From NCBI RefSeq assembly GCF_024204685.1, contig NZ_CP100350.1, positions 3,808,501 through 3,872,500 on the forward strand: a stretch of DNA of 64,000 nt, given 5' to 3'. Position numbers and translations under genes: made by a program. The notes below the pieces were generated by a model. It searched no databases. It had not been told where the DNA came from and saw nothing but the letters and a program-made list of their open reading frames with translations. Source of the DNA: Gilvimarinus sp. DA14 (GTDB lineage Bacteria; Pseudomonadota; Gammaproteobacteria; Pseudomonadales; Cellvibrionaceae). Position 1 is the stretch's first letter. Each line of letters opens with the position of its first letter. This document shows positions 21,243 to 36,215 of this stretch, piece by piece.

Positions 21243-22286
21243 ATGAATAAATATCCTCAGTGGCTAAACGACGCCATTTCACCGCCCGACAGTCAGGCCA
21301 TGAGTGCCGCACGCGCAAGACAAAACCAGCTGACTAAACCGCCTGGTTCCCTGGGCCAGCTGGAGTCGATCGCCGTGCGCTTTGCCGGGTTTCAAGGGCG
21401 TGAAAAGCCCTCTTTAAATAAAGTGTTAGTGCGGGTGTTTGCCGCCGATCACGGTATTGCGGCAAAAGGTGTATCGGCATTTCCGCAGGCGGTAACCGCG
21501 CAAATGCTGCAAAACTTTGCCCGCGGGGGCGCCGCTGTGTGTGTGCTGGCGCAGAGTCTCAACGCCGATTTTCGCGCGGTCAATGTCGGTTGTATTCATG
21601 AAATAGACCCGCAAATATCCGTGGTACACAACCCCATTGCCTCAGGCACTGCCGATTTTTCTCGCCAGTGCGCTATGAGTCAGGCGCAGCTCATCCAGGC
21701 GCTTGAGGTCGGTGCCCAGCAAACAAGCAGCGCTGATTTATTTATTGGCGGTGAAATGGGCATAGGCAATACCACTTCTGCCGCGGCGATTTTTGCCGCT
21801 GTGTATCAACTTGCCCCCGAGGCAATCACCGGGCGCGGCACGGGGGTGGATGATCAAACACTGGCTCGTAAAACTGCGCTGATTGCGCAGGCCCTAGAGT
21901 TACACGCGGCGCAATTACATCAGCCGCTATCAATACTGCAGTGCCTGGGTGGTTTTGAAATTGCGGCTTTGGTGGGGGCGTTTATTGCCAGCGCCCAGGC
22001 GCAAACCCCTGTGCTGGTGGATGGTTTTATTGCTACCTCGGCCGCAGCGCTGGCGCTGGCTATTAATCCGAGCATTGAGCCCTGGTTGCTATACGCCCAC
22101 CGCTCGGATGAACAGGGCCATGCCCTGGCGTTGCAGCAGGTACAGGCCGAGCCATTACTGCAGCTGAACATGCGGTTGGGGGAGGGCAGTGGCGCGGTGT
22201 TGGCTAGCAATATCATTCGCCAGGCTCTGTTGCTGCATTCTCATATGGCCACGTTTGCCGAGGCTGGAGTGTCCGATGCAGATTGA
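21243..22286 (+). CDS. cobT: Nicotinate-nucleotide--dimethylbenzimidazole phosphoribosyltransferase
   Basis: A 347-residue enzyme that makes alpha-ribazole phosphate, the activated lower ligand of cobalamin. Recognisable parts are QNQLTKPPGSLGQLESIAVR, VFAADHGIAAKGVSAFPQAV, GGEMGIGNTTSAAAI with the GRGTGVDD loop, and the C-terminal LNMRLGEGSGAVLA, where the catalytic glutamate is expected. The 3' end overlaps the start of cobC by 11 bases. No dimethylbenzimidazole synthase (bluB) is in the window, so the base must come from elsewhere. Confidence 0.95.
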   Translation: MNKYPQWLNDAISPPDSQAMSAARARQNQLTKPPGSLGQLESIAVRFAGFQGREKPSLNKVLVRVFAADHGIAAKGVSAFPQAVTAQMLQNFARGGAAVCVLAQSLNADFRAVNVGCIHEIDPQISVVHNPIASGTADFSRQCAMSQAQLIQALEVGAQQTSSADLFIGGEMGIGNTTSAAAIFAAVYQLAPEAITGRGTGVDDQTLARKTALIAQALELHAAQLHQPLSILQCLGGFEIAALVGAFIASAQAQTPVLVDGFIATSAAALALAINPSIEPWLLYAHRSDEQGHALALQQVQAEPLLQLNMRLGEGSGAVLASNIIRQALLLHSHMATFAEAGVSDAD

Positions 22287-22872
22287 TCTTCTGCGCCATG
22301 GCGAATGTGAGGGCGGCCGTATTTTTCGCGGCCATACCGATGTCGCACTCACTGACACTGGCTGGCAGCAGATGTTGGCGGGCTTGCAATCGCTAGAAGA
22401 TAATTGGCAGGCAATAGTCAGTTCGCCTCTTCAGCGCTGCCGCCGTTTTGCGCAAGTGTTGAGCGAGAATAGACAGCTTCCCTTAACCGTTATGCCGGGT
22501 ATTAAAGAAATAAATTACGGCATATGGGAAGGCCAACAAGTGGCGGATGTTTGGCGCGAGCAAGAACAGCAAGTGCTGGCCTGGAGTCGCGACCCTGAGC
22601 AATATGGCCCGCCAGAAGGTGAAGCGTTTAGCCAATTTCGTGAGCGTGTTTTGCAAACGGTGCTGAGTTTGGCTGAGACGGGTGATAACAAATTGTTGCT
22701 GATTACCCACGGCGGAGTCATTAAACTTCTGCTTAGTATTGCCAACAATAAACCCCCGCCATGGATGATGCAGCTTAATATTGGTTATGGTTTTACCGCT
22801 TCGCTGCAGCTACAGGCGGGGCAATTATCAGTGTTATATCCGGAAGCTAGCCATTATGTTTACCCAAGCTAA
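22276..22872 (+). CDS. cobC: Alpha-ribazole phosphatase (histidine phosphatase family)
   Basis: A 198-residue phosphatase that removes the phosphate from alpha-ribazole-5'-phosphate or from adenosylcobalamin phosphate. The phosphoglycerate-mutase-like RHGE motif is at IDLLRHGECEGGRIFRGHTD. The second histidine lies in LLLITHGGVIKLLL. The start is the ATG at 22276, overlapping the cobT end, and the stop overlaps cobS by 17 bases. Residues SSPLQRCRRFAQVL supply the phosphate-binding arginine. Confidence 0.9.
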   Translation: MQIDLLRHGECEGGRIFRGHTDVALTDTGWQQMLAGLQSLEDNWQAIVSSPLQRCRRFAQVLSENRQLPLTVMPGIKEINYGIWEGQQVADVWREQEQQVLAWSRDPEQYGPPEGEAFSQFRERVLQTVLSLAETGDNKLLLITHGGVIKLLLSIANNKPPPWMMQLNIGYGFTASLQLQAGQLSVLYPEASHYVYPS

Positions 22873-23629
22873 ACAGGCATTTTTATTTGCCTTGGTGTTT
22901 TTAACCCGCCTACCGGTGGCCCGCTGGATGCAAAAGCCAGAAGCCAATACTTCTACCAATGCGGTCTACTGTTACCCGCTGGTGGGGCTAGTGATTGGTG
23001 TGATCTTAGCGGCAGTGGCCATTGCCTTATCTGGCTTGGGTGATTTGCTTGGCGCAGCCTTGGTGCTGGCGCTATGGGTCGCTGTTACCGGCGCTTTACA
23101 TCTGGACGGCTTGGCCGATTGCATGGATGCCTACTACGCCGGCCATAAATGCACGGATGCCGAGCAAAGGCGCGAGCGTATCTTAAAGGTGATGCACGAT
23201 CCGGCCTGCGGTGCGGTAGCGCTGGTGTCACTGGTGCTACTGTTGCTGGTTAAATTCTCCGCTCTGGCGAGCCTGACGTCCGCCTGGCAGATGGTGGCGG
23301 GATTGATATTGGCCCCGGTGTTGGCCAGAACAGCCATTCTGCCGTTTGTTGCACTGTCGGAATACGCCCGTTACCAAGGCAAGGTGCCGGATAATTTAGT
23401 CACCAACAGCCAACGCCTGTGGTTGATTACCCTGTTGGTGGCGGCGTTGTGCGTGGCAACGGTGGGGCTGGTGACCAGCGCGATTTTAGTGGCTGCTGTG
23501 GCAGCTCTGCTGGTGTATTGGCGCTCGCTGTGGCAACAGCAAATAGGCGGCTACACCGGCGATTGCCTGGGCGCCTTGGTGGAACTCACTGAGACACTGG
23601 TGCTGATAATTCTGGTAGCGGTGTGGTAG
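22856..23629 (+). CDS. cobS: Adenosylcobinamide-GDP ribazoletransferase (cobalamin synthase)
   Basis: A 257-residue inner-membrane enzyme that joins adenosylcobinamide-GDP and alpha-ribazole in the last assembly step. The start MFTQAKQAFLFALVFLTRLPV is characteristic. The acidic metal-binding motifs appear as GALHLDGLADCMDAYYAG and later GYTGDCLGALVELTE. About six hydrophobic segments are present. It overlaps cobC upstream and cbiB downstream, consistent with coupled translation. Confidence 0.93.
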   Translation: MFTQAKQAFLFALVFLTRLPVARWMQKPEANTSTNAVYCYPLVGLVIGVILAAVAIALSGLGDLLGAALVLALWVAVTGALHLDGLADCMDAYYAGHKCTDAEQRRERILKVMHDPACGAVALVSLVLLLLVKFSALASLTSAWQMVAGLILAPVLARTAILPFVALSEYARYQGKVPDNLVTNSQRLWLITLLVAALCVATVGLVTSAILVAAVAALLVYWRSLWQQQIGGYTGDCLGALVELTETLVLIILVAVW

Positions 23630-24543
23630 TTGCCCTGGCGCTATTGCTGGGGTTTGCACTGGACGCCAGCTTTGCCGAACCGCGCCGCTGGCATCCACTG
23701 GTGGGTTTTGGTTATCTGGCGGGGCGGTTGGATTTGGCATTCAATAGGGGTCGGTTTTTACGCTTGCGAGGTGCTCTGGCTGTGGTTGTTTTACTTCTGC
23801 CTCTCACTTCGCTGGCGGCATTGCTGTGGTCGTGGTTAATCGCGCAATCTGCCTTTGCCGCTGTTATCACGGGCGCGCTGGGGCTGTACTTGGCGTTGGG
23901 CGGTAAAAGCCTGATTCTACATATTCAGCCAATTATTAACGCGTTAAGTGCCGCTGATACGGCGGCGGCCAGAGCGGCTGTACAAAAAATTGTCAGCCGC
24001 GATTGCGCCGAGCTTGAGTCAACCCAAGTGGCACGCGCGGCGACGGAATCTTTACTGGAGAACACCTCTGATGCGGTGGTAGCGCCGCTTTTTTGGTTTG
24101 CCCTTGCGGGTTTACCGGGCGTAATCGTGTATCGCCTTGCCAATACGTTGGATGCCATGTGGGGCTATCGCTCAGAAAAATATTATTACTTTGGCTGGGC
24201 GGCGGCGCGCCTGGACGATCTGTTGAACTTTATTCCCGCGCGCTTATGCGCCCTGGCTTTTGTCGCCTGCGGTGATGCCTCAGGTGCTATCAAAACCTGG
24301 CGGCTGTGCGCCAAAGCCTGGGCTAGCCCCAACGCGGGGCCGGTTATTGCCAGTGGCGCTGGTGCTCTGGGCATCAGTGTGGGAGGCGGCGCATCTTATC
24401 ATGGTAAATGGTGCGATAAGCCGATAACACCCGGCCGCGCGGCGAGCGCAGAAGGTTTGCAGCAGGGGCTGAGTTTGGTGCGCCGCGCGAGTACATGTGT
24501 GCTGATAGTGTTCGCGCTTTTTTGTTGGGGTGTTTATTTGTGA
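23623..24543 (+). CDS. cbiB: Adenosylcobinamide-phosphate synthase CbiB/CobD
   Basis: A 306-residue inner-membrane protein that attaches the aminopropanol-phosphate side arm to cobyric acid. The GTG start overlaps the cobS stop by seven bases. Signatures are FAEPRRWHPLVGFGYLAG near the N-terminus, LIAQS followed by long helices, ATESLLENTSDAVVAPLFWF and YRLANTLDAMWGYRSEKYYY. This order is specific to the CbiB/CobD family. The stop forms a GTGA overlap with the PLP enzyme gene, which supplies the side-arm precursor. Confidence 0.93.
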   Translation: MVVALALLLGFALDASFAEPRRWHPLVGFGYLAGRLDLAFNRGRFLRLRGALAVVVLLLPLTSLAALLWSWLIAQSAFAAVITGALGLYLALGGKSLILHIQPIINALSAADTAAARAAVQKIVSRDCAELESTQVARAATESLLENTSDAVVAPLFWFALAGLPGVIVYRLANTLDAMWGYRSEKYYYFGWAAARLDDLLNFIPARLCALAFVACGDASGAIKTWRLCAKAWASPNAGPVIASGAGALGISVGGGASYHGKWCDKPITPGRAASAEGLQQGLSLVRRASTCVLIVFALFCWGVYL

Positions 24544-25589
24544 GCGATGCCAGTGAGCACGGCGGAAACCTGCAAGCCGCGACAAAGTGCTTTGGGTTGC
24601 CGCACAACGGCTGGCAGGATTTATCCACGGGAATCAGTCCGTGGGGTTATCCGGTTAACAATGTCCCTGACGATGTGTGGCAGAACTTGCCCGTTAATTC
24701 TGAACCCTTACTTCATGCGGCACAAAAATTTTACGGGGTAGACAAGAATTATATTCTTCCCTTACCCGGTAGCCAGGCTGCAATTTCCTCTTTGCCGCGC
24801 TTATTGCCAGCGGCGCGCGTGGCGCTGCCAAGCTGCGGTTATCACGAGCACGAATACCATTGGACAAACGCTGGCCATATCCCGGTTTTTTATACAACCA
24901 TGGATGAGCTACTGCGGTTAACCGAAAATGGCGCGGTTGAACATGCGGTGGTTATCAACCCCAATAATCCGACCGGTCAGATCTTTGGCTGTGACATACT
25001 GCAAAAGGTTTATCACAAAATTGCCGGTGTGCTATTGGTAGACGAAGCTTTTATGGATTGGCAGCCAGAGAACACTATGGCCGCGTTTGTGGCGACGCTC
25101 CCACGTTTGATTGTGTTGCGCTCGGTAGGAAAGTTTTTCGGTCTTGCCGGCATTCGCTTGGGTTTTGTTTTAAGTGCTAATGGGAAAGTTGAGCAAATAA
25201 AAGCAGCGTTTGAGCCCTGGGCCGTTAATGGCCCAGCGATGTGGGTGGCTGAGCGAGCCTTAACAGATTTCGCCTGGCAGAAAATGCAAAGGCGACGAAT
25301 CGACAAGGTATATCAGACCCTTAAACATATTTTGCAAAATTTCATTCGACCTTTAGAACGCTCGGTGACGCTAGTGGGTACCGGGCTATTTGTGTCTTTG
25401 GCCGGCGATTCGAACCTCTTGGGTGCATTACATAAAGCCCTGGCCCTGCGGGGAATTTACACCCGCTGGGGTTATCAATGCGCCCCTTCCGCTACTGCCT
25501 ATTTACGTATCGGCTTGCCCCCTGACGATGGTGTACGCTTGCAAGCTGCCCTGCACGGGATACGAGAGCAGTGGGAGCAACAGTATTGA
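24540..25589 (+). CDS. Threonine-phosphate decarboxylase-type PLP enzyme (CobD of Salmonella, CobC of Pseudomonas)
   Basis: A 349-residue fold-type I PLP enzyme, aminotransferase-like, which should decarboxylate threonine-phosphate to (R)-1-amino-2-propanol phosphate. Motifs are LSTGISPWGYPV near the start, VVINPNNPTGQIF, LLVDEAFMDW, and the PLP lysine in VLRSVGKFFGLAGIRLGF. The GTG at 24540 overlaps the cbiB stop; an earlier in-frame ATG lies inside cbiB. Naming differs between species (cobD versus cobC), so no symbol is given. Confidence 0.9.
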   Translation: MSDASEHGGNLQAATKCFGLPHNGWQDLSTGISPWGYPVNNVPDDVWQNLPVNSEPLLHAAQKFYGVDKNYILPLPGSQAAISSLPRLLPAARVALPSCGYHEHEYHWTNAGHIPVFYTTMDELLRLTENGAVEHAVVINPNNPTGQIFGCDILQKVYHKIAGVLLVDEAFMDWQPENTMAAFVATLPRLIVLRSVGKFFGLAGIRLGFVLSANGKVEQIKAAFEPWAVNGPAMWVAERALTDFAWQKMQRRRIDKVYQTLKHILQNFIRPLERSVTLVGTGLFVSLAGDSNLLGALHKALALRGIYTRWGYQCAPSATAYLRIGLPPDDGVRLQAALHGIREQWEQQY

Positions 25590-25608
25590 AAAAACAGGAG
25601 TGGAAACA

Positions 25609-26487
25609 ATGAGATTTGCCTTGCTTATAACCGCGATGTTTGCAGTGTTTTCCGTGCATGCAAAGGTTATTGAAGTTGTGGACGCGCGCGGTAAAACGCT
25701 TCGCTTGCAGCAACCGGCCGAGCGTATTGTGGCTTTAGCTCCACACATTGTGGAAAACGTATACAGCGCCGGAGCGGGGCCTAAGCTGGTGGCGGCAGTG
25801 AGCTATAGTGATTACCCGGCCGAGGCCCAGGCGTTGCCGCAAGTAGGCAGTTATAAAGCCGTCAATTACGAAGCGATACTTGCGCTCAAGCCCGATCTAG
25901 TGCTGGGCTGGGCCTCGGGTAATGGCCCCGAGGTTGCGCGCCAGCTGGAGCGTTTGGGGTTGACGGTTTATGTAGATGAGCTGCGCACCATGGATGATAT
26001 TGCCGCCGAGGTGCGCACCATTGGTCAATTGGCCGGAACTTCATCGGTGGCTGAACCAAAGGTCTCGCAATGGCAGCAGAGACTGGAGCAATTAAAACAA
26101 GCGTACCACGGCGCCGAAGCTGTCACAGTGTTTTATCAGGTGTGGAATGATCCGCTGCAAACTCTAAACGGCGAGCACTTGGTCAGCGATGTGATTCGCC
26201 TGTGTGGTGGCGAAAACATTTTTGCTGATGCTATCTCGCTGGCGCCAAAAATTAATATTGAATCAGTATTGGCCCGCGACCCCGATACCATTATTGCCAG
26301 TGGTATGGGGGAGCAGCGCCCCGAATGGCTGGAAGAATGGAAGCAGTACACGGCGCTTTCAGCGGTAAAAAACCAGCACTTGTATTTTGTTCCGCCGGAT
26401 ATAATTCAGCGCCATACCCTGCGTATTCTCGATGGCGCCGATACCATGTGCCGTCAGCTGGACAAAGTGCGCGCCAAGAGCAAATAA
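25609..26487 (+). CDS. btuF: Periplasmic cobalamin-binding protein BtuF
   Basis: A 292-residue binding protein, last in the operon. The ATG at 25609 follows AGGAG and gives a short signal peptide (MRFALLITAMFAVFSVHA). The mature protein has the class III helical-backbone fold: RIVALAPHIVENVYSAGAG, YEAILALKPDLVLGW, a long central helix with LAGTSS, and NIESVLARDPDTIIASG. It should deliver cobalamin to BtuCD. It is unusual that it is separated from btuCD by seven biosynthetic genes. Confidence 0.9.
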   Translation: MRFALLITAMFAVFSVHAKVIEVVDARGKTLRLQQPAERIVALAPHIVENVYSAGAGPKLVAAVSYSDYPAEAQALPQVGSYKAVNYEAILALKPDLVLGWASGNGPEVARQLERLGLTVYVDELRTMDDIAAEVRTIGQLAGTSSVAEPKVSQWQQRLEQLKQAYHGAEAVTVFYQVWNDPLQTLNGEHLVSDVIRLCGGENIFADAISLAPKINIESVLARDPDTIIASGMGEQRPEWLEEWKQYTALSAVKNQHLYFVPPDIIQRHTLRILDGADTMCRQLDKVRAKSK

Positions 26488-26533
26488 TAGTGCCGCACAA
26501 ACAAATAAAAGTGACCGAATAACCTGATATAGG

Positions 26534-27403
26534 TTAATGGGTTTTGCGGCATACCCACACAGATAGCGCGATAACAGCGCCGCCTATTAACAGTCGCCCC
26601 CACTCGGCGTCGCGGCTCCAGAACATCACATTGACGAGAATGCCCGCCGGTATTAACAAATTGTTCATGGTTGCGAGCTGGCCGGTATTGACGCGCTTAC
26701 TGGCCATGGCCCAGGCCAAGTAACCAAAACCCGAGGCCCCCAGCCCCAGCCAAATCAGCACCGACCATTGAATGGCGGTAGTGGGCACCAGACTCCAATC
26801 GGTAAACAGCAGCGTGCCCAGCCCCGATACCAAAGTCGCGCCCAGGAAAAAGCAGGCAAAGGTTTGTACCTGAGCCCTGCTACTGCCAAGCTCTAAGCGC
26901 TTATAGCCAACCTGACCTGCGGCAAAGCACAGGTTGGCGGCCTGAATCAGTAAAAAGCCTGTGATAGCATCGGCGCTGATATCTTCGTAGCGAATAATAG
27001 CGGCACCGGCAACCGCCAGCGCCGAGCCCACCCACCAGCGAAAAGGTAGATGCTGCCGACGCAAAATCAGCTCATCGATTAAGGTAATCCACAGCGGTGT
27101 AAAAATTGTGAACAGCAATACCTCGGCGACGCTGATATAGCTAAAGGCATGGTAGAGAAACTGATAGGTAACCCCCACTTGCAAAGCGCCGATAGCGGTT
27201 AAGGCCAACAGGGTTTTAGGGGGCACTTGTGCCGGGCGAAAAAAGGGCAGAAAAATTGCCAGAGCCAGCGAGACACGAATCAGCACGGCCAAATAACTGT
27301 CAACATGGCCGCTCAGGTAAACGCCTATAAGGGAAAAGCTAAACGCCCAAATTACAGTGACCAGGCACAATACGACAATAGCGGGAAATTGTTTAAACAG
27401 CAT
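26534..27403 (-). CDS. EamA/DMT-superfamily inner-membrane transporter
   Basis: A 289-residue protein with about ten hydrophobic helices arranged as two EamA repeats. The first repeat begins VTVIWAFSFSLIGVYLSG. FTIFTPLWITLIDELILRRQ closes it, and GLGASGFGYLAWAMASKRVNTGQL marks the second. Members export or import metabolites such as amino acids. No substrate can be inferred. The ribosome site before the ATG is weak. It is convergent with btuF and divergent from the DUF3565 gene. Confidence 0.82.
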   Translation of the reverse strand: MLFKQFPAIVVLCLVTVIWAFSFSLIGVYLSGHVDSYLAVLIRVSLALAIFLPFFRPAQVPPKTLLALTAIGALQVGVTYQFLYHAFSYISVAEVLLFTIFTPLWITLIDELILRRQHLPFRWWVGSALAVAGAAIIRYEDISADAITGFLLIQAANLCFAAGQVGYKRLELGSSRAQVQTFACFFLGATLVSGLGTLLFTDWSLVPTTAIQWSVLIWLGLGASGFGYLAWAMASKRVNTGQLATMNNLLIPAGILVNVMFWSRDAEWGRLLIGGAVIALSVWVCRKTH

Positions 27404-27459
27404 TTAAGGTATTCAGGCTATAGTGGGGCGCGCAGTTTAACACAGCGGGGATTTGGAGC

Positions 27460-27699
27460 ATGCAACAGCCTATTGTCGGATATCACAAAGACGATGAAGA
27501 CCACTGGGTGGCCGAGCTGGCCTGTGGCCACAATCAACATGTACGCCACAATCCGCCTTGGGTGGTGAGGGACTGGGTAACCACGCCGATGGGGCGCGCC
27601 GCGATGTTAGGGCATAAGCTTGAATGCAAACTGTGTGACGATACGCGGCGGGGGCAAAATCGGCCGCCCGCCGCTGAAGGCTTAGACTCTCTGCAGTGA
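27460..27699 (+). CDS. DUF3565 small Cys/His protein
   Basis: A 79-residue soluble protein. The pattern YHKDDEDHWVAELACGHNQH, then RHNPPW and later LECKLCDD, is that of the DUF3565 family. Its one CGH and one CxxC element probably bind zinc. Function is unknown. Its last 18 bases overlap the 3' end of the convergent Roadblock gene. Confidence 0.75.
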   Translation: MQQPIVGYHKDDEDHWVAELACGHNQHVRHNPPWVVRDWVTTPMGRAAMLGHKLECKLCDDTRRGQNRPPAAEGLDSLQ

Positions 27700-28044
27700 T
27701 TTTTCCAGGTCGGCGGTTTTGCGCCGTGCCAGTGCCAAGTTGGAGGTTTTTCGATCTAACACCAGATAAATAAACAGCCCCTCGTTGGATGTGCTGGGGC
27801 GAATAATATGCAGCTGGTTTTCGAGAGTAATCAAAATATCCTCAATGCCGCCTTCAATGCCGAGGCTTTTCATGGTTTTCATTTTTGCTTTAACCACCTC
27901 ACTGTTGCCCGCCGCTGCGAGTTCGAGATCAACCCCGGAGCCTTCGGACGCTAATAGCATACCGGTAGTGAAATCGACAATGGCACAACCCAGTGCGCCA
28001 TCAATTTCCATCAAACCCTGGGTGGTTTCTTTTAAGTTGCTCAT
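27682..28044 (-). CDS. Roadblock/LC7-domain protein (second of the operon)
   Basis: A 120-residue single-domain protein with the Roadblock/LC7 fold: an N-terminal helix (LKETTQGLMEIDGALGCAIVD), a beta hairpin, a long helix (AAAGNSEVVKAKMKTMKSL) and a final strand pair (DILITLENQLHIIRP, LFIYLVLDRKTSNLALARRK). Bacterial members such as MglB regulate or scaffold Ras-like GTPases. It follows another Roadblock gene by 29 bases, and the two could form a heterodimer acting on the GTPase upstream. Confidence 0.75.
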   Translation of the reverse strand: MSNLKETTQGLMEIDGALGCAIVDFTTGMLLASEGSGVDLELAAAGNSEVVKAKMKTMKSLGIEGGIEDILITLENQLHIIRPSTSNEGLFIYLVLDRKTSNLALARRKTADLEKSLQRV

Positions 28045-28073
28045 CGTTATCTCCTGTGTATGAACAATACTGC

Positions 28074-28487
28074 CTATACCGAGGCAATCGCGGGTGAAGT
28101 TGAATGTTCGTGAAGCTCTTTGGCTAGGCGAGTAATCAGAAGCCGCAGACTGGCGATATTCAGTGTTTGCGCGGCGGACATGACCAGTACAAAGTTTTTG
28201 CCGCTCAGCTCAAGGTCGACAAACGCCACATTGCCTTGCTGCGCTTCGATAAAAGTAACCTTAAAGTTTTTACCCAAAATCTGGCGGGTGACGGCGTTGC
28301 TAACCGAGTGTAAGGTGCTGGCGGCAGCGGCGAGGTTATCCTGCTCTATTGGTACGGCCGCACAATTGTTCGTATAGACGGGAAATCCGTCTGTAGTGGC
28401 CAAAGAAATGACTTCTATAGCCTCGTTATCCGCGTAACGATTTATCAGTTGGATGGCTCGCTCTTTTAACGCGTCGTCAAATGGCAT
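28074..28487 (-). CDS. Roadblock/LC7-domain protein (first of the operon)
   Basis: A 137-residue protein of Roadblock/LC7 type, clearly diverged from its neighbour. It begins with an amphipathic helix ([17 protein letters not shown]), then [17 protein letters not shown] (the usual first hairpin), a central helix ([20 protein letters not shown]) and strands ending [18 protein letters not shown]. The start overlaps the end of the GTPase gene by 11 bases, so the two are translationally coupled, as expected for a GTPase and its partner. Confidence 0.75.
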
Positions 28488-29055
28488 CTTGTTGCTCCTC
28501 TGGGTAGAGGTTATTGTTCGCTTGGTTTATCGAATCAAACAGCTGCAGTAAGCTCAGCGATGATTCGACGTCGCGTGCGTCCAAACACACGACGGGCGCG
28601 GTCAGGTTAAATTCGTTTAGCGCAAATTGGAGAATGTCGAGAAACAGGTCCAGCTGCTCGTCGTCTTCGGCCTGGTCGCCGTGCGTTAAGCCGACCACCA
28701 AGGGCACCTCCGATTGCGCCGGCTGAAAATGATCGAGAATATCGGCGATGGAGTTGACGTTCAGTTCGTCGTTGTATTTGACCAGTAACAGCAGGCCCCA
28801 TAGCTCTTTGTTTACCATGTCCCACAGCATGCTAAAGCGCTTTTGTCCGGGCAAACCGTAAAGGCCCAGCGCAATGTCTTCGCCGAGCGAGAGGCGTCCA
28901 TAATCTATGCCCACGGTGGTGAACTCCTTGCCTATGTCCACAGTGGATTTGGCCTCGGTCATAAAAGGTGATATTTCGCTGATGGTATGAATCAGCTGTG
29001 TTTTACCCGCGCCAACTTCGCCCACGATAGCCAGCTTTTTATAGATTTTAGTCAT
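28477..29055 (-). CDS. Ras-like small GTPase (MglA-type superfamily)
   Basis: A 192-residue cytoplasmic GTPase. The P-loop is [15 protein letters not shown] with Lys18. A switch I Thr may be in [14 protein letters not shown]. The switch II region reads [17 protein letters not shown], which has LPGQ where eukaryotic Ras has DxxGQ. This PGQ form is usual among prokaryotic Ras-like proteins. The guanine-specificity position reads LTHGDQ rather than NKxD. The gene overlaps the BLUF-fold gene upstream (4 bases) and a Roadblock gene downstream (11 bases). It is probably a molecular switch; its output is unknown. Confidence 0.8.
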
Positions 29056-29852
29056 TGGTGGCTTCCCCCTTTGGCGCGATGTTGCGAGATAAACTGGCGC
29101 AACGCCTGGCTGAAGGAGTGACTGCTTTTGGGAGCCTCAGGCTTGCTGGCGGTTTTCAGTCGGTGTGGTTCACCCGGGGACTTTTGCTGGGTCACTTGTA
29201 GCGCATTGATTTTGTGCAGTTGCAATAAGCGCCTGTCTAGCTCATCGTTCTGCGCGAATATCTGTAGCTCTTTGAGGCGGTCGTAGGCCACCGTTTTATG
29301 AATCAGTAGAGGGCATATTTTCATCAGTCCAGCATCCATTCTCAGGGCCGTGGGGCGCGGCCAGGACTTCATCGACAGTAAGGTATTGCTAAAGCTGGGC
29401 GGGGTGTCAGAGAACTTTTCGTTTTGCTCTGTGTTATCCCGGGCAATGAGTTTTTCGTAGCGAATTTTGTCTAGGGTGGAGGAGAGCCGGAGGTTTGGTT
29501 GTAACAGCCGATTAATTTTGTCCAAATACTCACTGTGGGCGGCGCTGGTGTCGTGAATGAGTTTTAGATTCCAGCGCGTAAACTTTAAGGTGGTAATTTC
29601 CTGGTTGGCAATGACACTGATTTGGGTCAGGCGCGGATCGCGATTGGTGCGGTAGATTACCTGGGCTAACTCATTGCCATCACCTTCAAAAATTTGCAGC
29701 AGGGTATCCTGGTACACCAGAAAAATACCCACAATCGCATGCTCTTTGTTATAGCGCCGAGCACTGTCGAATATCTGGTACACCTGTTCGGAATAACTGA
29801 TGACCTTCTCGGGCGATAAGATACTGCTTAAACAAGCAATGCGTTTTGCCAA
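29052..29852 (-). CDS. BLUF-fold protein with degenerate photosite and long C-terminal region
   Basis: A 266-residue protein. Residues 3-100 match the BLUF flavin domain: [52 protein letters not shown] and [10 protein letters not shown]. Against AppA the conserved Asn (Asn35), Gln (Gln53) and Trp (Trp94) are present with exact spacing from Gln onward. The essential Tyr is Leu8 and the Met is Leu96. It is therefore unlikely to have the normal blue-light photocycle. Residues 100-266 are unrecognised, ending in a Lys/Ser-rich tail. The start is TTG at 29852, supported by AAGGA eight bases upstream. It is the first gene of the operon with the GTPase and Roadblock genes. Confidence 0.72.
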
Positions 29853-29855
29853 AAC

Positions 29856-29909
29856 AAGATTCCTTCTAATGGATATCCGTCTAATAATTTATGCGGCAGT
29901 AGGAATCTT
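29856..29909 (-). promoter_or_regulatory. Inverted repeat covering the ribosome site of the BLUF operon
   Basis: In transcript direction AAGATTCCT (29909-29901) is perfectly complementary to AGGAATCTT (29864-29856), 36 bases apart. The second arm contains most of the AAGGA ribosome site used by the TTG start at 29852. Pairing could hide the site and control translation of the operon. Confidence 0.4.
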
Positions 29910-30021
29910 AGTAGAGTTATAACAGCTAACAACAAGGAATTTATTCTAATTTTAAATAAAAAGAGAGAGGTTGTTAAAAAAGACTTTTATCGAAGGCGGG
30001 AATGTGGTTATAGGCGTCAGG

Positions 30022-30050
30022 TTGCCGCCCGTAAAATGTACGGGCGGCAA
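30022..30050. terminator. Terminator hairpin after glk
   Basis: A perfect 12-bp stem (TTGCCGCCCGTA / TACGGGCGGCAA) with a 5-nt loop, just beyond the glk stop codon. On the plus strand it is followed by TTTT; on the glk strand the tail is weak. It separates glk from the BLUF operon promoter. Confidence 0.65.
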
Positions 30051-30056
30051 TTTTGC

Positions 30057-31037
30057 TTAAGATTGCAGCGCTTGGGTGGTATCCACCAACCAGGCGGCGG
30101 CGCCAATTAGAGCCGCTTTATCATTGGTAACCATACGCACGGGAATATCTTCAACGTAGCCGCGCATAACGCCTTTGTTTAAATAGCGTTTAATAAAATC
30201 CGTTTGCGGCAGATAGTGAGCAATTTTAGGAACAATACCACCGCCTAAGTAAATGCCACCCATGGCGCCCCAGCTTAAGGCTTTATCGCCGGCCACCGAG
30301 CCTAAGATAGCGCAGAAGGTTTGTACCGCTTCTTCGCACAGTGCTTCTTTATGTTTGATGCCGCGCTCGCTGACATCGGCAGGGGACAAGTCTTCCGCGT
30401 CTACCCCTTTAAGGGCGGCCAAGGATTTATAAATAGAAACCAAACCCTGACCTGACAGCATATGCTCAATGGAAACATGCGGATGATGTTTGCGCATTTG
30501 CTGCAAAATACCTATTTCGGTATCGGTGGTGGGTGCAAAGCTGCAGTGGCCGCCCTCGGTGGGAATGATTTTCCAGCCGGTGGAGATCGGGGCCAAGAGC
30601 GCTGCGCCAAAACCGGTGCCGGGGCCCATAACGCCGATGGGGGCGTAGGGGTTGGCATCGGTGCAATACAGGCTAGCCGTATCGCCTTTTTGTAAATGCG
30701 GCACGGCGTAGGCGAGGGCAGAGAAGTCGTTGATTACATCCAGCGCCTGCATGTTCAGCTCATCGCGCAGACGCGAAATAGAAAACTCCCAGTTCAGGTT
30801 GGTGACTTTTACATGGCCGTCTTGAATCGGCCCCGCGATGGCCAGGCAGGCAAACTTGGGCATGGCTACGCCAGCTTGCTTAACGTAATCGCGAATCATG
30901 TCGGCGAGAGTTTCGTAGTTGGCGCTCGGCAGGCTGATTTGCTGCTCGGCGTTGTAGCCTTTGTTATGACTACAGGCATTAACCAGACCGAAGCGGCCAT
31001 TGGTGCCGCCGATATCGGCAACCAGAATAATACTCAT
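30057..31037 (-). CDS. glk: Glucokinase
   Basis: A 326-residue bacterial glucokinase (Glk family, not ROK) that phosphorylates glucose with ATP. It begins IILVADIGGTNGRFGLV, the phosphate-binding loop. Other signatures are FACLAIAGPIQDGHVKVTNLNW, DVINDFSALAYAVP with the catalytic Asp, and VMGPGTGFGAALL followed by IPTEGGHCSFAP. A GAGGAGA ribosome site precedes the ATG. It is divergent from the GH3 beta-glucosidase. The two share a regulatory region and together turn cello-oligosaccharides into glucose-6-phosphate. Confidence 0.95.
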   Translation of the reverse strand: MSIILVADIGGTNGRFGLVNACSHNKGYNAEQQISLPSANYETLADMIRDYVKQAGVAMPKFACLAIAGPIQDGHVKVTNLNWEFSISRLRDELNMQALDVINDFSALAYAVPHLQKGDTASLYCTDANPYAPIGVMGPGTGFGAALLAPISTGWKIIPTEGGHCSFAPTTDTEIGILQQMRKHHPHVSIEHMLSGQGLVSIYKSLAALKGVDAEDLSPADVSERGIKHKEALCEEAVQTFCAILGSVAGDKALSWGAMGGIYLGGGIVPKIAHYLPQTDFIKRYLNKGVMRGYVEDIPVRMVTNDKAALIGAAAWLVDTTQALQS

Positions 31038-31111
31038 GGGGTGATTCTCCTCGCGCAGACGTGATTGTTTTATCTTACTTATCAGACGGACAAATGCCCA
31101 GAGGGGGCCAT

Positions 31112-31121
31112 GTTATCGATA
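31112..31121 (-). promoter_or_regulatory. TATCGATAAC motif between glk and GH3
   Basis: The minus strand reads TATCGATAAC. The identical 10-mer occurs twice upstream of the LPMO gene (53482 and 53556). It may be a shared binding site for a carbohydrate regulator. Confidence 0.35.
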
Positions 31122-31134
31122 TAAATTTGTGCGC

Positions 31135-31163
31135 AGTCTAGTTTGAATTGACAGCGCTGTCAA
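31135..31163 (-). promoter_or_regulatory. Candidate glk promoter
   Basis: On the minus strand TTGACA (31163-31158), a 17-nt spacer and TAGACT (31140-31135). The -35 lies inside the palindromic operator, so a bound repressor would block polymerase. Confidence 0.45.
31148..31163. promoter_or_regulatory. LacI-family-type operator
   Basis: TTGACAGCGCTGTCAA is a perfect 16-nt palindrome with the central CG of LacI-family operators (pattern TGNNANCGNTNNCA). It lies between the divergent glk and GH3 genes and overlaps the likely glk -35 element. No lacI-family gene is in the window. Confidence 0.7.
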
Positions 31164-31288
31164 TAATGGTGTAGTTTGCGCCGCAATTCGCTATGCTAGT
31201 GCGCCTAATATAAGGCGTCTGCCCATAAAAATGCCCAACATAAAAATAGCGACGACAAAACCCTGACAGATACCTTCGGAGGTAAATT

Positions 31289-33751
31289 GTGCCTTGGCCC
31301 AAAGTCACCAGTGTGGTTGCGCCCGACCCCGCTATAGAAGAAAAAGTTGAAGCAATACTCGCGCAAATGAGCGTAGAGGAAAAAGTTGGGCAAATGATTC
31401 AGCCCGAAATCAAGCAGGTAACCCCGCAAGATATTAAAGACTTTCACATCGGCTCGGTACTGAACGGTGGTGGCTCTGTGCCCAACAACGACCGTTACGC
31501 CAAAGCCTCGGACTGGGTTGCCCTGGCCGACAGCTTTTTTGATGCCGCCGCCGATTGCTCTGACGGCAAGGTGTACGTTCCTATGATGTGGGGCACAGAT
31601 GCGGTACACGGCGTGGGCAATGTAGTCGGTGCGACCTTGTTTCCCCACAATATCGCTCTGGGGGCGACGGGTAATCCAGAATTAATTCGCCAAATTGGTG
31701 AAGTAACCGCGCGCGAAATTGCCGCTATTGGTATCGACTGGGATTTCTCGCCCACCGTTGCCGTGGTGCGCGACGACCGCTGGGGGCGCACTTACGAATC
31801 CTACTCGGAAGATCCGAAAATCGTTTACGACTATGCCGCCAAAATGGTTGAGGGCTTGCAGGGGGCGGGCGATGGCGATGAGTTTTTAAACACCGAGCAT
31901 GTGATTGCCACGGCCAAGCACTTTATCGGCGACGGCGGCACCATCAACGGCATTGACCGCGGCGACTGTGTGGATGATGAGCAAGTGCTGTGCGACATTC
32001 ACGGCGCCGGTTACATCAGCGCTATTGAGGCGGGCGTGCAAAGTGTAATGGCCTCATTCAACAGCTGGCACGGTGAAAAGCTGCACGGTCACAAGCATCT
32101 GTTAACCACTGTACTCAAAGACACCATGGGCTTTGATGGTCTGGTGGTGGGCGACTGGAACGGCCACGGCTTTATTGAGGGCGCCAGCGTGCTGGATTGC
32201 CCCCAGGCCATTAATGCCGGGCTGGACATTTTTATGGTGCCGGACCCGGACTGGAAAACGTTGTTCAATAACACGGTGGAGCAAATTAACAGCGGTGTGA
32301 TTCCTATGGAGCGCGCCGACGATGCAGTGCGTCGTATTTTACGCGTGAAACTGCGGGCCGGTTTGTTCGAGCGTGAAAAGCCTTCCAAACGCCCATTGGC
32401 CGGTCGCGATGAGATTATTGGCTCTCCCGAGCACCGCGCCGTGGCCCGTCAGGCGGTGCGTGAATCTTTGGTGATGCTAAAAAACAAAAATCAGTTGTTA
32501 CCGCTTAACCCCAAACAAAAAATACTGGTGGCCGGCGACGGCGCCGACAATTTATCCAAACAGGCCGGTGGCTGGTCGGTTACCTGGCAGGGTACAGGCA
32601 CCACCCGTAAAGACTTTCCCGGCGCCAGCAGCGTGCTGGACGGCATTCGCGATGCCGTAACCAGCGCTGGCGGCAATGTGGAATTTAATCAAGACGGCGC
32701 TTACAGCGAAAAGCCCGACGTCGCCATTGTGGTATGGGGCGAGTCGCCCTATGCCGAAATGCAGGGCGATGTACAGAACTTGTTGTACAAAGAATCAGCC
32801 GGCCGCGATTGGGCGCTGTTGCAAAAGCTAAAAGCCGAGGGTATTCCGGTAGTCTCATTGTTTATCACCGGGCGGCCTTTATGGATAAACCGCGAGCTGA
32901 ATGCCTCCGATGCCTTTGTGGTGATTTGGCAGCCGGGCACCGAAGGCGCCGGTGTTGGCGATGTGCTTTTTACCACGGCAAGTGGCGACATCGCGCACCC
33001 GATAAAAGGCAAGCTGACTTTCTCCTGGCCGCGCACGCCAGATCAGGGCCCGCTAAATGTGGGCGATGCCGACTATGACCCGCTGTTCCCCTACGGTTTT
33101 GGTCTGACTTACGGTGAGGCAGACACCCTTGGCGACGATTTGCCCGAGGAATATGACGCGAGCTTTGAAGCCAGCGATGAAATGCCCGTATTTAATCGGC
33201 GCCCCATGGAGCCCTTTGGCATCATCCTGGAAGGCTGCAAAAACGACCGAGTAGCTTTAACGGGCAACGCCGCGGAAACCACCAGCGTTAGTGTGAGTTG
33301 CGTAGACCGCGAGGTGCAGGAAGACGCCCGCCGTGTGCTCTGGAATGGCGCGGGCGAGGGGTTTGTCGCCCTGTCGACCCGCGACCGCCAGGTAATGGTG
33401 GATTACCTCGAAAACGACGGCGCGCTGGTGTTCGAGGTAAAAGTCGATAGCGCCCCCACCGCACCGGTTACATTGCGCTTAGGCTGTGGCCCCAATAGCA
33501 ACTCAGACCTGGATATCACCGAAACGGTTAAAAACCTTGTGGACCAAGGCTGGGCAAGGGTGACGGTACCCCTGCACCTGTTCCCCGATGTAGGCTCGGA
33601 CTTTGGCTTGGTGCTGCCGCCGGAAGAGTTTTTCTACCGTGTTCTGGAGCCTTTTACTCTGGTTACCAGCGGCGAGTTGGATTTGCGCTTTTCCTTTGTC
33701 GAGGTGCAAAAACATAAGGCCGGTAAAGCGATACAGGTAAGCGCTTGTTAA
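31289..33751 (+). CDS. GH3 family beta-glucosidase, apparently cytoplasmic
   Basis: An 820-residue glycoside hydrolase that removes glucose from the non-reducing end of beta-gluco-oligosaccharides. The GTG start is fixed by GGAGG seven bases upstream and an in-frame stop just before it, so there is no signal peptide. The GH3 N-terminal barrel has IGTDAVHG-like MMWGTDAVHGVGN, GIDWDFSPTVAV, ATAKHFIGDGGT and the nucleophile loop LVVGDWNGHGF with Asp289. The C-terminal sandwich starts VRESLVMLKNKNQLLPL and includes VVWGESPYAEMQGD. A further C-terminal domain after about residue 630 resembles the ExoP-type extension. It is divergent from glk. Confidence 0.9.
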   Translation: MPWPKVTSVVAPDPAIEEKVEAILAQMSVEEKVGQMIQPEIKQVTPQDIKDFHIGSVLNGGGSVPNNDRYAKASDWVALADSFFDAAADCSDGKVYVPMMWGTDAVHGVGNVVGATLFPHNIALGATGNPELIRQIGEVTAREIAAIGIDWDFSPTVAVVRDDRWGRTYESYSEDPKIVYDYAAKMVEGLQGAGDGDEFLNTEHVIATAKHFIGDGGTINGIDRGDCVDDEQVLCDIHGAGYISAIEAGVQSVMASFNSWHGEKLHGHKHLLTTVLKDTMGFDGLVVGDWNGHGFIEGASVLDCPQAINAGLDIFMVPDPDWKTLFNNTVEQINSGVIPMERADDAVRRILRVKLRAGLFEREKPSKRPLAGRDEIIGSPEHRAVARQAVRESLVMLKNKNQLLPLNPKQKILVAGDGADNLSKQAGGWSVTWQGTGTTRKDFPGASSVLDGIRDAVTSAGGNVEFNQDGAYSEKPDVAIVVWGESPYAEMQGDVQNLLYKESAGRDWALLQKLKAEGIPVVSLFITGRPLWINRELNASDAFVVIWQPGTEGAGVGDVLFTTASGDIAHPIKGKLTFSWPRTPDQGPLNVGDADYDPLFPYGFGLTYGEADTLGDDLPEEYDASFEASDEMPVFNRRPMEPFGIILEGCKNDRVALTGNAAETTSVSVSCVDREVQEDARRVLWNGAGEGFVALSTRDRQVMVDYLENDGALVFEVKVDSAPTAPVTLRLGCGPNSNSDLDITETVKNLVDQGWARVTVPLHLFPDVGSDFGLVLPPEEFFYRVLEPFTLVTSGELDLRFSFVEVQKHKAGKAIQVSAC

Positions 33752-33776
33752 CCTTCTGCCATTAACTTGGCTCGAG

Positions 33777-33804
33777 AAGCCCGCTCTTGCGAAAGAGCGG
33801 GCTT
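33777..33804 (+). terminator. Hairpin after GH3 gene
   Basis: A perfect 12-bp stem (AAGCCCGCTCTT / AAGAGCGGGCTT) with a GCGA tetraloop, 26 bases after the stop. The stable tetraloop and location suggest a terminator, although the T run is poor. Confidence 0.65.
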
Positions 33805-33968
33805 GATTAACCCCCACAAATGACTACCATAGCGGCCTTACGGAAGTAGGCGCCCAGAGAATCTCTGCGAACTTTTGTCGTCCACGCGTGTCATACGCGC
33901 GTTACGGATCTCCCTGTGCACGGGAGGACAAAAAATAAGCGCCAGACGCAGCGCAAGCGAAAAATACT

Positions 33969-36215
33969 ATGGTTAAAGTCCGCCAAGACCACCCCATTGC
34001 CGCAGACGGCAGTGTCGATATCGATGCCTGGCTGCAGCGCCTGGAAGGCATCGAGCAGCAAAGCTCACCTACGTTGGCCGAAATTAAGCGCGCCTGCGAA
34101 CTCTGCCAAAGTGTCGATATTCTACCCAGTACCGACCCCCACAGCTGGGGCGAGGGCACCAGTTGCTTTCGTATCGGTCTGGAAATGGCCGAAATTCTCG
34201 CCGACTTACAGCTGGACCAAGACACCCTGGTCGCCGCCGTGCTCTACCGCGCGGTACGAGAGGGCAAGCTCGCACTCACCGGGGTAGAGGCGCAGTTCGG
34301 TGAAACCGTCGCCAAGCTGATTAAGGGCGTACTGCGTATGGCGGCCATTAGCTACCAGCGCAATGAGTCCGATGAAAAAGTATTCGGTAAACAGTCCGAA
34401 GAGCAGGCCGACAACATTCGCAAAATGCTGGTGGCCATGGTGGATGATGTACGTGTCGCACTGATCAAACTGGCCGAGCGCACCTGCGCCATTCGGGCGG
34501 TAAAAACCGCAAGCCCCGCGCGCCGTCGCCAGGTGTCGCGCGAGGTGTCCGATGTGTACGCACCCCTGGCGCACCGCTTGGGTATCGGCCACATTAAGTG
34601 GGAGTTGGAAGACCTTTCTTTTCGCTACCTGGAGCCCGCCGATTACAAACGCATTGCCTCGCTGTTGGACGAGCGTCGTATCGCCCGACAAGAATACATC
34701 GACAATGTGCTGGAGCTTTTGCGTGGCGAACTGAAAACCGCCAATATCGACGGCGAAGTGAACGGTCGTGCCAAGCATATCTACAGCATCTGGCGCAAAA
34801 TGCGCCGCAAGGGCATCGGCTTTTCTCAGGTGTACGACATTCGCGCCGTGCGTATTCTGGTACCCTCGGTGCGCGACTGTTATACCGTGCTGGGTATTGT
34901 GCACAGCCTGTGGCGCAACATCCCCCACGAGTTTGACGACTACATCGCCTCGCCCAAAGAAAACGGCTACCGCTCGCTGCACACCGCGGTAATCGGCCCG
35001 GAAAACAAAGTGTTGGAAATTCAGGTGCGCACCTACGCCATGCACGATGAAGCTGAGCTGGGTGTGTGCGCCCACTGGCGTTACAAAGGCACAGATACCG
35101 ATGCCGCGCAGGACGGTTACGAACAAAAAATCTCCTGGCTACGCCAAGTGCTTGAATGGCACGACGAGCTGGGCGGCAGCAGCGAGCAGCAGCTGCAGGA
35201 TGATCTGAAAGCTTTCGATCAAGACCGCATTTATGTGTTTACCCCCGAAGGCCATGTGGTGGATTTACCGAAAACCGCCACGCCTTTGGATTTTGCCTAC
35301 CGCATTCATACCGATGTTGGCCACCGCTGTCGCGGCGCCAAGGTGAACGGGCGCATTGTGCCGCTTAACTACCACCTGAATACCGCCGATCAGGTAGAAA
35401 TTCTAACCGGCAAGCGCGAAGCGCCCAGCCGCGACTGGTTATCGCCGGCGCTCGGCTACGTCAACACCGCCCGCGCCCGCGCCAAAGTGCAACACTGGTT
35501 TAAAGTGCAGGCCCGCGATGACAATATCGCCGAAGGGCAGGCGCTGCTGGATCGCGAATTTAAACGCCTGGCGCTGCTGGATTTAGATTTTGAAGCGCTG
35601 GCGAAAAAGCTCAATATGCAGACTCTGGACGATCTGTACGCTGCGGTAGGGGCCAGCGATATCGGCGTGGGCCAGGTGCTTAATGCCGCCCAGCGTTTGA
35701 TTGATAAAGAGCATCCCAAAGAGCCGGTTATTCCGTTTAAAGCCCGCTCACCGAAAACGAAAAAAGATTCGGATGTGTACATCGAGGGTGTGGGTAACCT
35801 GCTGACGCAAATCGCCAGCTGCTGTAACCCGGTACCGGGCGATGCCATTACCGGCTACATAACCCTGGGCCGGGGTGTCTCCATTCACCGCGCCGATTGC
35901 AGTAATATTTTGCAACTGCAGGCGGATGAACCCGAGCGCATTATCAAAGTGGACTGGGGTCGCAAGCCCCAGAGCAGTTACTCGGTGGATATTATGGTCG
36001 AGGCCTACGACCGCTCGGGCCTGCTGCGCGATATTACCTCACTGCTGGATCACGAGCGCATCAACATCAGCGCCATGCAAACCCTGTCCGACAAACAGAA
36101 AAACTCGGTGGATATGCTGATTACCGTAGAAATTCGCGGCTTTGATGAACTCAGTCGCGTGCTAACGCGGTTAAATCAATTGCCGAATATTGCGTCGGCG
36201 AGAAGGAAGTTGTGA
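33969..36215 (+). CDS. relA: (p)ppGpp synthetase RelA
   Basis: A 748-residue ribosome-associated alarmone synthetase that makes (p)ppGpp during amino-acid starvation. It is RelA rather than SpoT because the hydrolase HD motif is lost: the position reads VLYRAVREG instead of LLHDVVED. The synthetase domain (about 240-380) includes GRAKHIYSIWRKMRRK, YDIRAVRILV and ENGYRSLHTAVIG. A TGS domain (VFTPEGHVVDLPKTATPLDF), a zinc-finger-like Cys-Cys segment (SCCNPVPGDAI) and a C-terminal ACT domain follow. Length matches E. coli RelA (744). The GH3 gene upstream is unrelated, and the usual rlmD neighbour is absent. Confidence 0.95.
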   Translation: MVKVRQDHPIAADGSVDIDAWLQRLEGIEQQSSPTLAEIKRACELCQSVDILPSTDPHSWGEGTSCFRIGLEMAEILADLQLDQDTLVAAVLYRAVREGKLALTGVEAQFGETVAKLIKGVLRMAAISYQRNESDEKVFGKQSEEQADNIRKMLVAMVDDVRVALIKLAERTCAIRAVKTASPARRRQVSREVSDVYAPLAHRLGIGHIKWELEDLSFRYLEPADYKRIASLLDERRIARQEYIDNVLELLRGELKTANIDGEVNGRAKHIYSIWRKMRRKGIGFSQVYDIRAVRILVPSVRDCYTVLGIVHSLWRNIPHEFDDYIASPKENGYRSLHTAVIGPENKVLEIQVRTYAMHDEAELGVCAHWRYKGTDTDAAQDGYEQKISWLRQVLEWHDELGGSSEQQLQDDLKAFDQDRIYVFTPEGHVVDLPKTATPLDFAYRIHTDVGHRCRGAKVNGRIVPLNYHLNTADQVEILTGKREAPSRDWLSPALGYVNTARARAKVQHWFKVQARDDNIAEGQALLDREFKRLALLDLDFEALAKKLNMQTLDDLYAAVGASDIGVGQVLNAAQRLIDKEHPKEPVIPFKARSPKTKKDSDVYIEGVGNLLTQIASCCNPVPGDAITGYITLGRGVSIHRADCSNILQLQADEPERIIKVDWGRKPQSSYSVDIMVEAYDRSGLLRDITSLLDHERINISAMQTLSDKQKNSVDMLITVEIRGFDELSRVLTRLNQLPNIASARRKL

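Follow-up and report, generated by a model that had tools for sequence, protein, structure and literature searches.

The described systems closest to the operon analyzed here are the Group 3 MglA systems of Beta- and Gammaproteobacteria. In the parts of the survey consulted (Wuichet and Sogaard-Andersen 2014; PMC4316618), these systems comprise a GTPase, one or two MglB proteins, and a protein that begins with a receiver-like head and ends in a winged helix, and GTPases with a DxR motif in G5 and with neither an Arg finger in G2 nor a Lys in G4 are described for Groups 2 and 3. The MglA/MglB pair of Myxococcus (Group 1) also combines a GTPase with a roadblock protein. The actinobacterial conservons (CvnA to CvnD; Group 2) are operons of a sensor, a roadblock protein, a further protein, and an MglA-type GTPase. 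The BLUF photoreceptors (e.g., AppA, PixD, and BlsA) share the fold of the sensor head described below.

The four-gene operon and its GTPase

The window (i.e., the whole stretch of 64,000 nucleotides that was analyzed) lies in the closed 3.96-Mb chromosome of Gilvimarinus sp. DA14. It contains a minus-strand operon in the order sensor, GTPase, RB1, and RB2, with the following features.

29052..29852, minus strand: sensor protein (BLUF plus winged-helix-like part), 266 aa, TTG start
28477..29055, minus strand: Ras-like GTPase of the MglA type, 192 aa (Pfam Ras, 1e-6; ATP_bind_1, 4e-9; alignment, motifs, and tree)
28074..28487, minus strand: RB1, a roadblock/LC7 protein (MglB-like), 137 aa (Pfam Robl_LC7, 3.6e-6)
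27682..28044, minus strand: RB2, a second, very conserved roadblock protein, 120 aa (no Pfam match; AF2 pLDDT, 92.9; roadblock/MglB matches)
27623..30056, no strand: module interval, 2,434 bp (102 bp instead in the close relative G007, with the same flanks)

An earlier note on this DNA had described four minus-strand genes encoding a degenerate BLUF protein, a Ras-like GTPase, and two different Roadblock proteins. Its spacing was confirmed (i.e., overlaps of 4 and 11 bases and then a 29-base gap), and the GTPase and roadblock assignments agree with the Pfam matches, the profile matches, and the RB2 model. All four reading frames are open, and chance open reading frames are ruled out by conservation and purifying selection. 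The upstream neighbor, glk, lies 204 bases away on the same strand. On the downstream side, a convergent DUF3565 gene (27460-27699, plus strand) runs tail to tail into RB2, sharing its last 18 bases, and is followed by an EamA transporter gene. Promoter-like sites (2 found, 3.0 expected) and terminator-like sites (7 found, 3.4 expected) were counted, and none were used. The BLUF protein matched one unnamed PHROG (E = 1.1e-9) and the GTPase matched one at E = 0.08; RB1 and RB2 matched no PHROG.

In the window GTPase, G2 reads TT at residues 46-47 (i.e., Thr where the Arg finger would be), G3 reads GLPGQ, G4 reads THGD, without Lys, and G5 is D159-A-R161. The DxR of G5 occurs in all 37 BLUF-type GTPases, mostly as DPR, and G3 reads G[LV]PGQ in 37 of 37. 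The GTPases encoded behind a winged-helix, non-BLUF sensor carry GTPGQ (31 of 32) or GIPGQ (one). Five more GTPases, to which no sensor was assigned at first, carry GTPGQ (two), GCPGQ (two), or GSPGQ (one), and a later profile search found the winged-helix part in three of these five loci. The 37 BLUF-type GTPases form one side of a branch (support, 100/100; length, 2.64) in a tree of 74 GTPases that holds no references of other MglA groups and has few close outgroups to this long branch. Given this single clade, the BLUF head need have been acquired only once.

The operon shares with Group 3, as characterized in the survey parts consulted (PMC4316618), a beta/gammaproteobacterial host and a small GTPase with no G2 Arg finger, no Lys in G4, and DxR in G5. 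It also has a winged-helix sensor end and one or two MglB-type neighbors (i.e., RB1 and, by its fold, RB2). It differs in having a BLUF head instead of a receiver-like one, GLPGQ or GVPGQ in G3 of the BLUF-type GTPases instead of GTPGQ, and a second roadblock protein whose type is missed by Pfam. Because the head is BLUF and not receiver-like, we file the operon as a Group 3 variant rather than a plain member. On the basis of these sequence features, it is very probably a variant of the Group 3 MglA-type GTPase systems in which the head is BLUF. The operon is conserved and well formed, and the BLUF head on a known Group 3 plan is what is new.

Two other assignments were rejected. The Myxococcus MglA/MglB system resembles the operon in pairing a GTPase with a roadblock protein and in the GxPGQ of G3, but the window operon has two unlike roadblock proteins and a sensor. 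Its G2 is TT, without an Arg beside the Thr, and its G3 is GLPGQ, not the TVPGQ given for Group 1 in the survey parts consulted. A conservon is excluded by the absence of a histidine kinase gene from the operon (neighbors: glk, DUF3565, and EamA), and the sensor and the winged-helix part are one protein here, unlike in conservons. DUF742, the family of the CvnC-type protein, is absent from the Pfam matches of the sensors scanned, an absence that proves little at this sensitivity.

No output gene for the module was found at the locus, where the neighbors are glk, DUF3565, and EamA. The glk gene is next to the unit in four other fetched Gilvimarinus loci, one of which (G003) also has EamA/DUF3565. 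EamA and DUF3565 were rejected as outputs by neighborhood, since both also occur in G007, which is without the unit. Other recurrent neighbors, named by eye (i.e., LysR-type regulators, dehydrogenases, and, in Comamonas, a response regulator with a sensor kinase), look like close-relative synteny or common families. Several related GTPase operons contain additional genes, also named by eye: a phosphoesterase-like gene (L036 and L040), a fused ABC-ATPase and phosphatase-like gene (L037, L038, and L041), or PAS-like and phosphonate-binding-like genes (L042 and L043).

Alternatively, the operon could be a polarity switch of the MglA/MglB kind that acts on type IV pili, its output then being surface motility or attachment. 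MglA and MglB act so in Myxococcus, and in Synechocystis the BLUF protein PixD acts via PixE and PilB1 to direct phototaxis by means of pili (PMC9090330), as far as the parts of these sources consulted go. PilT-family genes were detected in all 58 relatives (57 scoring above the cut-off), but they are equally present without the module and hence uninformative either way. With no pilus gene adjacent at the locus, and with G2 and G3 motifs that differ from those reported for Group 1 MglA in the survey parts consulted, we hold this explanation to be distinctly unlikely.

The BLUF head and its two residue classes

The sensor is composed of a BLUF domain (approximately residues 1 to 100), a linker, a winged-helix-like part (approximately residues 156 to 223), and a basic C-terminal tail; the BLUF fold of the head is borne out by sequence and structure matches. 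Residues were mapped with MAFFT and with an AppA alignment that ends short of the photochemical Tyr, and the AppA numbering of Tyr21, Gln63, and Trp104 follows PMC4630285. The window copy has Cys at the position of this Tyr, keeps Gln, Asn, Asp, Arg, and Trp, and has lost the His of DxRH. Among 38 distinct BLUF-type sensors, the position is occupied by Tyr (23) or Cys (15) and by no other residue; the alignment of one Cys row (L118), which stems from a divergent metagenome bin, may be wrong, and three new class-sample loci (L177 to L179), which also have Tyr, are left out of the counts.

In the Tyr class (n = 23), which includes Psychrobacter, Arenicella bins, and Agarilytica, Asn, Gln, Asp, and Arg are each present in 23 of 23 sequences and the His of DxRH in 22. 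Trp is present in 19, with Lys instead in the three Agarilytica copies and His in one. The Cys class (n = 15), with members in Gilvimarinus, Zhongshania, Oceanobacter, and Parathalassolituus, retains Asn in 14, Trp in 13, Asp in 11, Gln in 10, Arg in 8, and the His of DxRH in none. Its BLUF domain is nevertheless constrained (pN, 0.15 to 0.25, versus pS, 0.72 to 0.84). Three changes between Tyr and Cys are needed on the GTPase tree. Gene order tends to track the class: RB2 comes first in 20 of the 23 Tyr rows and last in 18 of the 20 Cys rows, counts that include duplicates.

The photochromic shift of BLUF domains requires Tyr21 and Gln63, and variants without the conserved Tyr or Gln may still show weak light signaling, according to the parts of the source consulted (PMC4630285). 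Like AppA, PixD, and BlsA, the Tyr-class heads keep Tyr, Asn, Gln, and DxR; their signal is probably blue light, and the Tyr-class relatives of the window operon are probably light-sensing. The window class differs from these photoreceptors in having Cys for Tyr; a head joined to a winged-helix part, in an operon with a GTPase, is a further difference. In the Cys class, the residue pattern and the constraint suggest that the BLUF fold has probably been kept by selection while normal BLUF photochemistry has probably been lost. If so, these heads should respond to another cue (i.e., a ligand, a redox state, or a partner protein), and the window copy probably does not sense light as BLUF proteins usually do. 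The intact BLUF head of other members had been overlooked in the earlier note.

The Cys-class head might instead still sense light or redox state through a flavin, with the Cys itself taking part, given that Tyr is always replaced by Cys (15 of 15 distinct sequences) and that Asn, Gln, Asp, and Arg are retained in the window copy. However, the losses across the class (His of DxRH, 15 of 15; Arg, 7 of 15; Gln, 5 of 15) look like a class-wide loss of flavin binding, which makes such a sensor very unlikely, and we keep to the reading of a lost photochemistry on a conserved fold.

A 2013 paper, in the part consulted, set the Psychrobacter BLUF protein apart from those of Acinetobacter (PMC3554667), and the four-gene operon may be the reason why it stands apart. 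Agarilytica (G012) carries three near-identical Tyr-class modules (L031, L032, and L033), one of them on the 71.7-kb plasmid pSU2. On another contig (L089 and L092), an RB2 gene lies approximately 6 kb before a complete Cys-class module and may belong to the end of another module in tandem.

The winged-helix part and the two roadblock proteins

The C-terminal parts of the 37 BLUF-type sensors and of 32 non-BLUF sensors, which stand before related GTPases, matched each other over 64 columns (hhalign, 97.6%; E = 4.3e-12). In contrast, the BLUF heads had no profile match to the non-BLUF heads (0.1%), and three head-against-tail controls gave 0.1 to 0.6%. The AF2 model of the C-terminal part of the sensor has three helices and a strand (pLDDT, approximately 90); in a structure search with the sensor model, the BLUF part filled the match list. 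A C-terminal membrane-binding helix was considered and rejected on a hydrophobic-moment test (p of 0.05 reached by 11 of 37 BLUF-type and 4 of 32 non-BLUF tails; mid-head controls, 0 of 37 and 2 of 32). The last 25 residues of the sensors are basic (median charge, +4 in both sets).

A winged-helix part may also bind DNA, in which case the winged-helix protein would be the output, i.e., a transcription regulator controlled by the GTPase and the roadblock proteins and modulated by the BLUF or receiver-like head. Such a role was put forward for Group 3 from the predicted winged helix-turn-helix in the parts of the survey consulted (Wuichet and Sogaard-Andersen 2014; PMC4316618). One non-BLUF sensor (L157) almost reached the DprA winged-helix cut-off (22.8 versus 22.9 bits). 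The net charge of the winged-helix core is +4 in the window and has a median of +2 in the non-BLUF set, with which DNA binding stays compatible. The median for the BLUF-type set, however, is 0 (range, -8 to +5), and the approximate recognition-helix stretch has a median charge of -1 in BLUF-type and non-BLUF sets alike, which argues weakly against DNA binding; we consider this output unlikely. Because the recognition-helix stretch is not basic and the part travels with the GTPase whatever the head, we prefer, on what is a weak argument, to regard the winged-helix part as a putative protein-protein adaptor rather than a DNA binder.

RB1 matched solved roadblock proteins in profile searches (best, 7f8m, E = 1.6e-7; MglB, E = 0.003 to 0.006). 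RB2, on the other hand, matched no Pfam family at E values up to 5, so that the Robl_LC7 model was not reached, and nothing better than E = 0.08 was found among PDB sequences. Its AF2 model (pLDDT, 92.9) is nevertheless a confident roadblock fold, and the structure matches are roadblock/MglB proteins. RB2 has 31 invariant columns in an alignment of 44 sequences and, among the four genes, is under the strongest constraint (pN, 0.05 to 0.10). A sequence kinship between RB1 and RB2 was rejected, as the two have no profile similarity (0.1%) and only the fold in common; because of this, an RB1/RB2 heterodimer would be only an analogy. In approximately 10 non-BLUF loci (L154, 6499-6909; L035, 7234-7602; and relatives), an additional small gene lies between RB1 and RB2. 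The one scanned had no significant Pfam match, and the gene perhaps encodes a third roadblock protein.

RB2 was found in 33 of 398 sampled Pseudomonadota genomes (E, 1e-15) and on 28 plasmid records, including those of Streptomyces, Hymenobacter, and Deinococcus (46 to 64% identity among the 20 matches listed). No annotated GTPase was found near the plasmid RB2 genes in the Streptomyces and Deinococcus stretches inspected, for which the gene tables are incomplete. Stand-alone RB2 genes with no GTPase seen nearby occur in Streptomyces, Deinococcus, and Comamonas (L162, 7983-8357; L165, 8001-8363; L117, L120, L146, and others), and those on the two plasmids are annotated as hypothetical proteins. 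RB2, which often stands alone, is thus not confined to the four-gene operon.

Distribution, proposed mechanism, and meaning

Among 58 relatives (the own genome included), matches to the GTPase were found in 16, to RB2 in 15, and to the BLUF protein in 22, many of the last being weak hits to other BLUF proteins. The relatives hold 12 GTPase loci above 160 bits, 3 of which are the near-identical Agarilytica copies. All 12 have a BLUF protein alongside and 11 also have RB1 and RB2; the exception (G018) has the BLUF and GTPase genes, with RB1 and RB2 absent nearby and no RB2 match genome-wide. In the class sample, 63 of 369 genomes had a GTPase match (E, 1e-15), and the 30 loci fetched split cleanly into 4 at 292 to 297 bits (the own genome included) and 26 at 136 bits or less. 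BLUF, RB1, and RB2 are present in 4 of the 4 high-scoring loci. None of the 26 lower-scoring loci has BLUF, and all 26 have a winged-helix sensor within a 1.5-kb flank. BLUF-type GTPases thus occur in 4 of 369 genomes on the basis of the fetched loci, aside from one further high-scoring copy (274 bits; G693) that was left out of them. The co-occurrence check proposed in the earlier note accordingly turned out in favor of a unit, with all four genes together in 14 of 15 GTPase-seeded BLUF-type loci (3 near-identical, from one genome).

An RB2-seeded scan of named genomes was evaluated for its best 79 of 461 loci, which are not all independent and come partly from genomes that overlap the GTPase-seeded set. 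BLUF is present in 31 of the 79 (29 with all four genes and 2 cut by contig ends). A GTPase without BLUF is present in 28, of which 26 have a winged-helix sensor by profile, and no GTPase is present in 20, including 15 loci flanked by 2.5 kb or more in each direction.

Within Gilvimarinus, five of eight genomes carry the unit. In G007, whose glk protein is 98% identical, the module is absent, and 102 bp with the same neighbors stand in place of window positions 27623-30056. The DNA identity to G007 is 91% on the glk side (30057-35052) and 75 to 79% in aligned blocks on the other side (22001-27622); this step (locus L169; window positions 22001-35052) falls at the module, a pattern that would fit an exchange of one side. 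The patchy presence in Gilvimarinus, the absence from the same site in G007, and the eroding flavin residues could be taken as signs of a decaying operon without function, but with all frames open and strong purifying selection we regard decay as most improbable.

We propose instead that the operon is a BLUF-headed Group 3 variant that works from sensor through winged-helix part to GTPase, with the roadblock proteins as regulators, and give this whole explanation a probability of about 0.55. The N-terminal head of the sensor would take up the signal, and the winged-helix part, which is common to Group 3-type systems, would alter the nucleotide state or the availability of the GTPase. RB1 and RB2, an unlike roadblock pair, would bind to the GTPase and control it in the way that the MglB dimer controls MglA, and the GTP-bound GTPase would then act on an effector encoded elsewhere. 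The gene content and order, the domains, the single clade, the residue loss, and the RB2 fold are supported; we infer every step of binding, regulation, and output. G018 without roadblock genes, the RB2 loci without a GTPase, the missing profile similarity between RB1 and RB2, the long BLUF branch (2.64), the window winged-helix core of +4, and the weak light signaling of BLUF variants that lack the conserved Tyr or Gln count against the mechanism. The signaling module suggested in the earlier note, with the BLUF-fold protein as input and the GTPase as switch, stands as a compact conserved unit in which these roles are probable, and the winged-helix part is what it had missed. It is possible, as a tentative extension, that the Tyr-class operons are natural light-gated Ras-like GTPase switches, in which blue light received by the BLUF head would alter the GTPase nucleotide state by way of a winged-helix adaptor and with a two-part roadblock regulator, and that the Cys class has swapped light for another cue.

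None of the titles listed in searches of the open-access literature, outside which most subscription papers fall, reports a coupling between BLUF and a GTPase. A link between a light receptor and a small GTPase is otherwise known to us only from engineered optogenetic tools. If the proposal is true, the two would be coupled in one natural bacterial operon, and four small genes would suffice to rebuild the coupling. That heads are swapped while the winged-helix part and the GTPase stay constant speaks for the winged-helix part being what faces the GTPase in all Group 3 systems, a kind of system to which the survey sections consulted (PMC4316618) assign no function. RB2 represents a widespread, very conserved roadblock family that escapes Pfam, and the Tyr and Cys classes would offer a natural comparison of the states before and after photosensing was lost.
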